NCBI GenBank assembly: GCA_002270565.1
Contig: NQMI01000004.1
Coordinates: forward strand, 124,001-188,000
From: Stenocarpella maydis
Taxonomy: Eukaryota; Ascomycota; Sordariomycetes; Diaporthales; Diaporthaceae
Length of the DNA: 64,000 nt
Reading direction: 5' to 3'
The position numbers were made by a program, and so were the translations under genes. The notes below the pieces were generated by a model, which did no database searches, was not told the origin of the DNA, and saw only the letters and a list, made by a program, of their open reading frames with translations. Shown here one piece after another: positions 58,292 through 62,072 of the stretch (its first letter is position 1; each line of letters starts with the position of its first letter).

Positions 58292-59282
58292 CTTTGCTGC
58301 TTGGGATGGCGGAGCGACGCTGGGCAATGGGGAAATACTAGCAGGGCGAACCGGTCACTCGAGATCGCAAGGGGGATAACTATCGAAGGTATTTATTTGC
58401 TCGTCAAGGCCGAGTCTGGTTCACGCTACAGGTCGTGCCTGCAGTGCAGAAATTGGCAGGAATGGAATCCCAGCACGCCGCGACCACAATAGGACCTCGT
58501 CTGTCCTAGGCCGTCCGGCGTCTCGGCTCATTTCATCCTGTCCAGATCGAGACTCGCGTTAGCACGTTGGCAAGGCAGCAGGGCAGGGCGTCTGGACGCC
58601 AGGAAAAGGGGCGATGACCGGTAGGATTCGAGAGCGCCACATCACCATTGTGTAGAAGAGGCTGCCCCCCTTGTTAGTTATGTATCGCCTACTGACTAGA
58701 GGTCGAGCTGGCCCAACAGGAGTGGGATGCGGCTCGTCTCCGCTTGGCTGCCTCGGCCGTGGAGACCGCAACAATTCTTCTGCCTGGACGAGGTGAACCG
58801 CCGTGTCGATCCGGCAGTCGGCCTGCAGGCTGGGAAAACCCCAGCACGGCCTGTTATTGCCACTCATGCGAGGGGCGCATGGTGGACCCGTCGAATCCTC
58901 CGGCATAACCAGAGACAGCCCAAAGACACTTGTACTATTAGCATGTGCGGAACTAGTCGGCAGGCGCCACGGCTGGGCGCCACATTCCGTCCTTCCAACA
59001 ACATACCTGGAATTCATATCTGGTTCAGGAATGGTGCACAGAGCCCAATGGCCTTGTCCACTTATCTCAGGAGCCTCCCAGCCGAGCTCAAGCTGACAAC
59101 ACCATCATTGGTGGCAATAATGCCAGGAATCAAACTGCACACAAAACACGTACAAATGCACACTCTTTTCAACTAGGACACGGATACATTGAGGCAACAC
59201 GAGTTCCATATGACGGCTGCGACGAGTAAAACTAAAGAGATGGAGAGCGAAACACGTTCCCCCCTGGAAGATGACGCCAAAA
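58292..59282. other. Spacer, no gene seen
   Basis: Promoter of the secreted-protein gene and 3' flank of the tRNA gene. Overlapping ORFs at 58559-59176 have no support. Confidence 0.5.
59279..59282 (-). terminator. Pol III terminator of the tRNA gene
   Basis: TTTT on the minus strand starts directly after the tRNA discriminator base (59283). Confidence 0.75.
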
Positions 59283-59293
59283 TGAATTCGCCC

Positions 59294-59304
59294 GGGATCG
59301 AACC
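59294..59304 (-). promoter_or_regulatory. Pol III B box of the tRNA gene
   Basis: GGTTCGATCCC in the T arm fits the GWTCRANNC core. The two inserts put it about 130 bp from the A box, longer than usual but within what Pol III can use. Confidence 0.8.
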
Positions 59305-59318
59305 GGGGACCTTGACGG

Positions 59319-59356
59319 ACTGCTGCGAACAAGCCACAGAGTTCATATTCACATAT
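59319..59356 (-). other. Canonical 38-nt tRNA intron after position 37
   Basis: Lies one base 3' of anticodon CAC, the standard eukaryotic site cut by the tRNA splicing endonuclease. It contains two GTG trinucleotides that could pair with the anticodon in the pre-tRNA. Confidence 0.75.
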
Positions 59357-59375
59357 TGTGAACGTCACGTGATAA

Positions 59376-59430
59376 CTTTAATGAGTTAGCATGGAGAGAC
59401 TTGACCGGGCGGTTGTGAGACAGAACATAC
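59376..59430 (-). other. 55-nt spliceosomal-type intron candidate in the tRNA D-loop
   Basis: Starts GTATGT (59430-59425), contains GCTAAC (59390-59385) as a branch-site match 9 nt before the end, and closes with TTAAAG (59376). Size and signals match the mRNA introns in this window. The AAG end is weaker than CAG/TAG, but the S1 nuclease gene here also uses an AAG acceptor. Exact GT-AG removal restores AGTGG-TTATCAC. Eukaryotic tRNA introns normally sit only after position 37. Confidence 0.7.
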
Positions 59431-59441
59431 CCACTACACCA
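59431..59441 (-). promoter_or_regulatory. Pol III A box of the tRNA gene
   Basis: TGGTGTAGTGG matches TRGYNNANNNG and ends exactly at the border of the D-loop insert. Confidence 0.75.
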
Positions 59442-59448
59442 CGAATCC

Positions 59449-60378: not shown

Positions 60379-62072
60379 TCACCTTTTGGCTGGGAGAGCC
60401 TGGTCCAGACATGACAGGACCTAAGGCGTGTGTTAGTGGGAGGCTATGCTAGACGGCTGCAAGGGGTCCTATGCTCACCTCATCTCCCAAGGCGCCTTGG
60501 TTGCCAAGGTACCTCGCCATGTTACGAACGAGCTCAATCTGCTCGTCCACGGTCAAGCCGGTGATGGCAGTCTCCAACACACCACCGAGCCCAACCTTGT
60601 GGGTGGCGATGAAGGAGTGGTAGTACATGAAGGTGAAGAATCCCATGATGAACTGACAGTCCATGCGATCGGTCATGCCGCCGTGCCCAGGAATCGAGTG
60701 GCCAAAGTCCTTGATCTTGAACGTGCGCTTGAGTCCCGAGGCGAAGAAGCCCCCGAACGGTGCGATCAGAGAAGCAAAGGTGGCAAAGACCATGGTGTGG
60801 ATCTGCATGGGCTCCATGGTGATGCTGAACTGGGTGCCATCCGGGAGGAAGAACAGGTGAGGGAGCTCGTACTTGTAGGGGAGGAACACGGGGTTGGGCT
60901 CGCACTGCAGACCGGTAAAGACGTTTGCGCCAAAGTCCTGGATACAATTAGCGTGAGCCACTACTAGGAAGGGATAGAACAACGTCAGTAGACGGGGGCT
61001 GCTTACATTGACAGGACATGTGAAATAGCCGCTGCGCATCATCAAATTGGTCAGTGCATAGCCGAAGATGACGGTAAAGACCCAGGCGCCGACAAAACCC
61101 TCGACGGTCTTCTTGGGGGACAGCTTGATGAGCTGGGTGCGGCCAAAGGTGATACCGCAGATGTAGGCGAAGATATCGTTTGTGATGACAAGGGCGGCGG
61201 GCAGGAAAAACCAAACCAGGCCCTCCAGAACATTGTTCATGATGAAGTGGGCCTGGACCACAATGATCAGAAGCGCCATGTGAGTCCATGCAAACTGGGT
61301 GAATTGGAACTTCAGATGGCCGCCCTTGAGGGAGCCGACAAAAAAGACGAAGCCTGTGGGTGAGCGTCAGCACCGGGTTCCCCCTGAGAGGATACGGGTT
61401 CACGCAGGACTCCGGCCTACCGATGATATAGAGCATGAAGCTGATGAAGCGGTGGTGCGTGGCCAGTGGCAGGAGCACCTTGTCCACAAGCACAACATGC
61501 TTGAAGTAGTAGATGACGCTTTCTCCGTACAGAAAGTACATGGTGGTGGCGAGCCAGTACCAGTTCAAACTCTTGGTGGACCGCAGCTGGCGGGCTCGGG
61601 AGGGGACGCTCGCAATGGCGATGACCTCCTTGAAGGAGATGATCTGGATGACGGTGATGATGAGGATAACGTATATGTGGCCCATGAAGAGGGCGGCGAA
61701 GAAGCCGCCGATCATGAGCAGCGTCCATATTGTCCTTGTTATGAAGTTTTGCTTCTTCTTTTCGTACTCGTTCTGGGGTGGCTGAGCGGCTTCTTTCTGC
61801 ATATGAGCAAAGATGGTCAGCGGGCCGGACAGAGCAGAGGGGTGCCAGGCAGGGAGAGAGGGGGACAGGCCGACGCGACTGTGCGCAACCACCAGGCATG
61901 GGTGCAGAGAGTGGCATACCTCAGCTATCTGGTCCATGTGCGGCGGCGACTTTGCCTTTGGGGAGCCCTCCTGGCTGGCCTCGCTGTGCTCGCTGAAGCT
62001 GGCGCGACGGCCGTCGACGCTGCCGTTGCCTTTCCGATGGGCAAACTTGACGCCCCTACGTCCGTTCCCCAT
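60379..62072 (-). CDS. CDS1: Phosphatidate cytidylyltransferase (CDP-diacylglycerol synthase)
   Basis: Makes CDP-diacylglycerol from phosphatidic acid and CTP (EC 2.7.7.41) in the ER membrane, feeding synthesis of PI, PS, PG and cardiolipin. Exons 62072-61920, 61796-61421, 61353-61007, 60937-60479 and 60420-60379 give 458 residues, close to the yeast enzyme. The N-terminal 50 residues are basic and disordered, then multiple membrane helices follow (TRTIWTLLMIGGFFAALFMG onward). Key blocks: NDIFAYICGITFGRTQLIKLSPKKTVEGF and the CDS signature KRTFKIKDFGHSIPGHGGMTDRMDC. The last small exon (VLSCLDQALPAKR) was chosen over reading through to TAG at 60449-60451 because donor GTGAGC follows GDE and the tail matches relatives. 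Likely essential and intact. Confidence 0.93.

Follow-up and report, generated by a model that had tools for sequence, protein, structure and literature searches.

A tRNA-Val(CAC) gene of Stenocarpella maydis, found in the 64,000-nucleotide stretch of contig NQMI01000004.1 that was analysed here (‘the window’), is interrupted twice: by an ordinary tRNA intron after position 37, and by 55 nucleotides in the D-loop whose resemblance to a fungal spliceosomal intron is beyond chance. This D-loop insert is probably a U2-type spliceosomal intron residing in a functional gene, and the same two-step scheme of maturation probably holds for four tRNA-Lys(CTT) genes elsewhere in the genome; the sequences suggest that certain tRNAs become usable only after passing through two different splicing machines. 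Introns of the mRNA type are already known in a Pol III RNA (U6), while in a nuclear tRNA they are apparently new within the open-licence literature: no report of such a case was found there, in agreement with the preliminary description of this locus, which knew of none. Nuclear tRNA splicing is described, in the accessible text of PMC13149111, as independent of the spliceosome.

The preliminary description, made from the letters alone, had placed the gene at 59283-59448, which is correct (it lies on the minus strand), and had proposed that removal of both insertions would leave a 73-nt tRNA. The excised product bears this out, with seven of seven acceptor pairs (one of them G-T), five pairs in each of the anticodon and T stems, and a D stem of three pairs plus a T13.T22 apposition; because the uninterrupted paralogue described below has the same D stem, this apposition does not point to decay. 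Boxes A and B and the TTTT terminator, likewise part of the earlier account, are all present, the terminator following the gene directly; the two stretches labelled as boxes in Table 1 are so named on the basis of what is generally known about such promoters of Pol III. The start of box A lies 137 nt from the start of box B, versus 82 nt in the paralogue. A run of four T is the commonest first T-run (at least four T, up to 60 nt 3' of the gene), being found in 32 of 70 gene records, a set that includes duplicate entries, some loci with less than 60 nt of sequence 3' of the gene and nine records with no T-run of that length. Freed of the D-loop insert, the gene is called by ARAGORN as tRNA-Val(cac) with a 38-nt intron; with the insert present, a default ARAGORN run on the whole window found no tRNA, and the Rfam library gave no match at the locus even with E up to 1. 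Upstream of the tRNA gene lies CDS1 (phosphatidate cytidylyltransferase; 60381-62072, minus strand), with four introns of 58-123 nt.

Table 1. Features of the tRNA-Val(CAC) gene of the window, with the basis for each assignment
Feature	Positions	Strand	Length	Basis or remark
Whole tRNA-Val(CAC) gene with two introns	59283..59448	minus	166 nt	sequence and C12 paralogue
Exon 1a: acceptor 5' strand and box A, last base G19	59431..59448	minus	18 nt	equals paralogue, no mismatch
Putative mRNA-type (spliceosomal) intron, D-loop G19/U20	59376..59430	minus	55 nt	missing from paralogue; GT-AG and branch motif; chance test
5' splice site GTATGT (putative)	59425..59430	minus		sequence
Branch-site motif GCTAAC, presumed branch A 59386	59385..59390	minus		sequence; 10 nt to intron end
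3' splice site AAAG (putative), RAG (minority) type	59376..59379	minus		sequence; Fusarium frequency from available text of PMC5677156
Exon 1b: remaining D-loop, D stem 3' strand, anticodon CAC, A37	59357..59375	minus	19 nt	
Canonical tRNA intron, 37/38	59319..59356	minus	38 nt	paralogue's has equal length and position
Exon 2: anticodon stem 3' strand, variable loop, T arm, acceptor 3' strand	59283..59318	minus	36 nt	
Box A TGGTGTAGTGG, not broken by insert	59431..59441	minus		sequence
Box B GGTTCGATCC	59295..59304	minus		sequence
Pol III terminator TTTT, directly 3' of gene	59279..59282	minus		sequence

The signals within the insert follow one another in the order expected of an mRNA intron: GTATGT, then TGCTAAC (whose branch A precedes the last intron base by 10 nt), then AAAG. 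Each stands where the preliminary description had put it, and the branch distance falls inside the range of 6-36 nt given for fungal introns between branch and 3' splice site (PMC5832005, available text). A rule for chance tests was built from that range and from a consensus drawn from Fusarium (PMC5677156, likewise), namely GTRNGT...CTRAY (6-36 nt)...AG. Only three of the 127,892 55-mers of the window (both strands) fit it, one of them the insert itself; the strict form GTATGT + GCTAAC + AG has a single occurrence among the window 55-mers, which is again the insert; and when the insert was shuffled, one of 400,000 versions fitted the rule. Two features were counted against a spliceosomal reading. 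The acceptor AAG is of a minority type (RAG makes up 5.69% of 2022 Fusarium introns in the accessible part of PMC5677156); it is the first AG past the branch motif; the four mRNA introns placed in the neighbouring CDS1 all finish CAG or TAG, unlike the AAG seen here. In addition, the exon ahead of the insert comprises just 18 nt plus leader. A genome search with the insert (E up to 10, one candidate scored) returned only itself, and the many near-identical copies that mark an introner-like element were not found. Its position, 19/20, is not the canonical 37/38, at which a separate intron exists.

The genome searched comprises 53.5 Mb in 312 contigs. For an alpha-mannosidase encoded in the window the top match stands at 84%, and the nearest named ones are from Diaporthe ilicicola (83%) and D. 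australafricana (81%). A copy search with the first 18 exon nucleotides (up to three mismatches) gave 40 places, of which two were exact, the window gene and C12:818109; a search with the T arm (again up to three mismatches) gave 16, among which the only Val(CAC) genes were these same two, the others being Val(AAC) (by our reading), Gly, Tyr and Gln, and one place without a tRNA. The C12 gene shares the first 37 exon nucleotides of the window gene, is without exactly the 55 nt, carries a 38-nt intron at 37/38 and is scored by the Rfam tRNA model at 49.8 bits. Relative to it, the window gene has 55 extra nucleotides between G19 and U20; a G on either side means that the ends can be shifted by one base, and of the two possible registers only one begins GT and finishes AG. 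The exons of the two genes differ at two of 73 positions, both in one T-stem pair and compensatory (C49-G65 in the window gene versus G-C), while their 37/38 introns differ at ten of 38 (Fisher p=3.4e-4). Since the genes read as Val(AAC) have this pair in the form seen in the window gene, the change probably took place on the C12 side. The C12 gene (L010, C12:818109-818219) lies about 4.4 kb from a contig end, and its own 37/38 intron begins GTGAGT and finishes GCAGCAGT.

The existence of this paralogue gives substance to the alternative that has to be weighed most carefully, in which an intron-like insertion has recently disrupted the window gene, which makes no tRNA and leaves this task to the C12 gene; we regard it as unlikely. 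The uninterrupted C12 gene could alone carry the function, a point that was counted against the two-step reading; the genome search (one candidate scored) revealed the insert nowhere else; the acceptor is of the rare RAG type; and an insertion in the D-arm of one of several synonymous eukaryotic genes is, according to the available text of PMC4090602, usually taken to mark a pseudogene. Against these points stand 73 exon positions without decay and splice signals that are complete and in register. Of the signs that the preliminary description had named together as speaking against its reading (no spliced RNA, an uninterrupted Val(CAC) gene elsewhere and random decay here in orthologues), the uninterrupted gene does exist, but the exons of the window gene are free of decay. 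The further evidence that bears on a disrupted copy, and makes it less likely, comes from the four tRNA-Lys(CTT) genes, which have the same architecture and have kept identical exons despite inserts that have diverged.

Among the RF00005 matches outside contig C312 (presumed mitochondrial), 41 of 42 were examined, and two tRNA genes in that set had a Lys body with an odd anticodon. A search with the Lys 3' half (up to three mismatches) found five genes, all exact. Four of these five tRNA-Lys(CTT) genes (L097, L098, L099 and L100) contain mRNA-type inserts of 55-57 nt, located just upstream of the 37/38 intron, with the donors GTAAGT, GTTAGT (in L098), GTACGT and GTATGT, with GCTAAC in every case and with CAG at all four ends; the fifth, L101, is interrupted by an ordinary 37/38 intron, 66 nt long. 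The point at which the anticodon region is split varies, falling after C34 in L098 (CTC/TTA), after T35 in L097 and L100 (CTCT/TA) and after T36 in L099 (CTCTT/A), and each of the three split points gives CTT plus A37 once the insert is excised. With the insert taken out exactly, all four genes have one and the same 5' exon of 37 nt, with CTTA at its end, and one and the same 3' exon of 36 nt, separated by a 20- or 22-nt intron at 37/38. Were the only cut an endonuclease-type one behind position 37, three of the four would have a wrong anticodon and the other G37. ARAGORN labels the four genes Gln(CTG) (twice), His(ATG) and Lys(CTT).

Taken together, the Val and Lys inserts all contain GCTAAC, measure 55-57 nt and have the branch A 9-12 nt from the end, and exact excision restores a mature tRNA in five genes out of five. 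Counted against a spliceosomal reading is the presence, in L098 and L099, of an earlier AG between the branch motif and the one that restores the tRNA. When the chance-test rule was applied to seven inserts (including two from the U6-like loci described below), four passed (Val, L097, L099 and L100), and L098 failed on its donor GTTAGT.

The exons of the four Lys genes are identical, while their inserts agree at 41/59 to 46/57 columns and their 300-nt flanks at 0.48-0.56 of columns, as compared with 0.50 on average and 0.54 at most for random pairs (a maximum that a few of the flank pairs slightly exceed). Identical exons, drifted inserts and near-unrelated flanks would together make these genes old paralogues in which the spliced product has been kept; a gene conversion confined to exons would also explain the identity of the exons, and is less likely. 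A trailer, CAATTCCCG, follows directly after the gene in all five Lys(CTT) genes (L097-L101), with outer flanks that are nearly unrelated. Two histories, intron sliding under selection for the spliced product and separate precise insertions, would each account for the compensated slide of the split point, and in either case the GT-AG unit is what is removed. Alignment of insert interiors distinguishes two groups: for Val against Lys, 278-412 of 1000 shuffles were as good, whereas for the Lys inserts against each other none or one of 1000 was. The Val interior being unlike those of Lys, and the Lys inserts being alike, at least two gains are indicated. The Lys exon, scanned against viral and prokaryote collections, gave no match. 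The preliminary description had left a choice between two splicing machineries acting in series and a disrupted copy; the four Lys genes with their common architecture, identical exons and diverged inserts, together with GT-AG inserts at two of three U6-like loci, favour the former on sequence grounds.

The remaining alternatives fare worse. One of them would make the insert a non-canonical tRNA intron like those of Cyanidioschyzon or nucleomorphs, with the tRNA endonuclease as the cutting enzyme, and non-canonical D-arm introns are indeed known in some eukaryotes (PMC4090602, available text); however, the four-pair central helix of a bulge-helix-bulge (BHB), in its strict form, is formed by none of the five tRNA inserts. 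The core pairs number 2/4 for Val (1/4 in its shifted register) and 2/4, 1/4, 2/4 and 2/4 for Lys, so that the endonuclease is an unlikely agent for the inserts; moreover, GT, GCTAAC and AG are not needed by that enzyme, and this explanation is accordingly very improbable. To much the same degree improbable is the idea that Pol II reads the locus as downstream sequence of CDS1, with the intron spliced in that transcript and the tRNA released or not: CDS1 is on the same strand and about 930 nt from the tRNA, but boxes A and B and the TTTT are intact, and four Lys genes elsewhere share the feature. A parse with one ordinary 86-nt intron, in which the CAC inside the insert serves as anticodon, is forced from the raw gene by ARAGORN when introns up to 200 nt are allowed, and can be dismissed: three of its four D-stem pairs would be G-T and its variable loop oversized (by our reading of the parse), and the insert-free paralogue gives a normal cloverleaf with the other CAC. 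An assembly error or chimaera is just as hard to credit, with five separate loci on different contigs all containing exactly bounded inserts of one kind.

If the insert is a spliceosomal intron, as we favour, Pol III would transcribe the Val precursor from the intact boxes A and B to the TTTT; the spliceosome would then take out the 55-nt D-loop intron, so that the D-arm can form; and the tRNA splicing endonuclease and ligase would next remove the 38-nt intron at 37/38. The proposed order draws on the contact that the Sen54 subunit of the tRNA endonuclease makes with the D-arm (PMC4090602, available text), by reason of which the D-loop intron should go first. The same two steps would apply to Lys(CTT), where the mRNA-type intron splits the anticodon, which would have to be rebuilt before the 37/38 intron is recognised. 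The spliced Val and Lys products would presumably be functional. It seems to us, by a modest balance of the evidence, that the tRNA reading AAG (Lys) largely, and that reading GTG (Val) partly, must pass the spliceosome before the endonuclease, and that at least two independent intron gains, one of them inside an anticodon, tie decoding to splicing capacity. Should the scheme be true, it would show the spliceosome able to act on a Pol III RNA that is very short and tightly folded and whose first exon measures 18 nt, and a natural test would be provided of reverse splicing as a source of introns. Genes of this kind would also be liable to be mislabelled or overlooked by tRNA finders, as has happened here with three of the four Lys genes (labelled Gln or His by ARAGORN) and with Val (missed by default ARAGORN and Rfam).

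Several known systems resemble the proposed one in part. The mRNA-type introns of fungal U6 snRNA (S. pombe and others) are alike in that a short GT...AG intron with a branch motif interrupts a short Pol III RNA; they differ in that U6 is not a tRNA and there is no endonuclease step. Canzler et al. 2016 is said to be a survey of U6 introns. The fission-yeast U6 intron, of the mRNA type, lies near catalytic nucleotides and is for that reason thought to have arisen by reverse splicing (PMC10484740, available text). Fungal U3 snoRNA likewise contains normal spliceosomal introns in a small structured RNA, with intron-bearing and intronless copies together in eight genomes (PMC5832005, available text); it differs in not being a tRNA and in having its introns almost all in the 5' stem-loop. 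Spliceosomal introns reported from ascomycete rDNA are also of the mRNA type and in a structural RNA that is not made by Pol II, but the transcript is a Pol I rRNA. Canonical nuclear 37/38 introns occur in the same Val and Lys genes and in many other tRNA genes here, and differ from the inserts in position, signals and enzymes. The non-canonical tRNA introns of archaea, nucleomorphs and Cyanidioschyzon are similar in lying in the D arm or anticodon stem-loop, sometimes in addition to a 37/38 intron (PMC4090602, available text); those of archaea and Cyanidioschyzon are cut at BHB motifs, of which the strict form was not found in the present inserts, and those of nucleomorphs are 3-24 nt long and spliced in a way that is not understood.

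Among the U6-like loci of the genome studied, inserts of this kind occur beside an intronless locus. The U6 model matched six places, two of them above its cut-off (44 bits), and three loci were read. L133 (C1; 54.2 bits) has no insert, and its AGCAUGG region has diverged. L132 (C167:53920-54130, minus; 53.9 bits) has a 56-nt insert of the form GTAGTA...CTGAC...TAG, and L134 (C301:645405-645610), which at 39.4 bits is under the cut-off of 44, has one of 48 nt, GTAAGT...CTAAG...TAG. In these two of the three U6-like loci read, the insert is in the catalytic region and at the same place, just before UAGCAUGG. Both inserts fail the chance-test rule (L132 by its donor GTAGTA, L134 by its branch CTAAG) and thus conform less well to the consensus than the tRNA inserts do.

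The spread of such inserts among other tRNAs was surveyed in several ways. In the RF00005 search 63 of 1343 candidates were scored, and whole genes were missed (for example, five Gly(GCC)), so that the tRNA inventory is incomplete. The exact B-box motif GGTTCGANYCC occurs at 213 places, versus 303 in a reversed control, which means that most of the matches are due to chance; among the 85 places read (of 100 listed among the 213), no further isoacceptor with a convincing insert was found, and inserts are therefore not a general feature of the tRNAs here. An excision script was run with one set of rules (131 loci, 94 test excisions) and with looser ones (183 loci, 517 test excisions at 181 B-box-like sites). 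Within the scripted loci, excision yielded a proper tRNA that was absent from the raw sequence only for the Val gene and the four Lys genes; L098 became Lys only under the looser rules, and when those Lys genes were excised in other ways the parses came out as Asp, Arg, Val and His. The script's outputs at L044, L045, L062, L066, L078 and L095 were rejected as spurious parses, the adjoining genes being whole without excision.

Seventeen places matched a pattern of box A plus a following donor, versus 17 in the reversed control, and five of the former were the window gene and a four-place repeat. Box-A-like stretches followed by a donor were seen at C249:28564 (GTACGT), C287:160630 (GTGAGT) and C104:37143 (minus; GTAAGT). 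A repeat containing GTCTTCTTGGTGTAGTGG is present at C145:141077, C149:21637, C247:176088, C253:284531 and C290:56471, with GTAAGT following it at four of the five places; no B box was found in the 400 nt viewed of one copy. An inventory of ‘24-end’ matches comprised 41, from which three His matches (L135-L137) were then dropped as repeats rather than genes; at these loci (L135, L136 and L137, on C279, C254 and C56) the 3' half of a tRNA-His ends repeats of a GTTGGCCGAAGAAACC-like unit. Finally, L154 (C37:67969-68179, minus) is tRNA-like: its acceptor and T stems pair, and TTTTT lies downstream; its anticodon loop holds a 65-nt insert with GTGGCTAACAGAG (which contains GCTAAC), a poor donor, GTGGGC, and an AG about 5 nt from the branch A, and removal of the insert leaves a loop of 6 nt.
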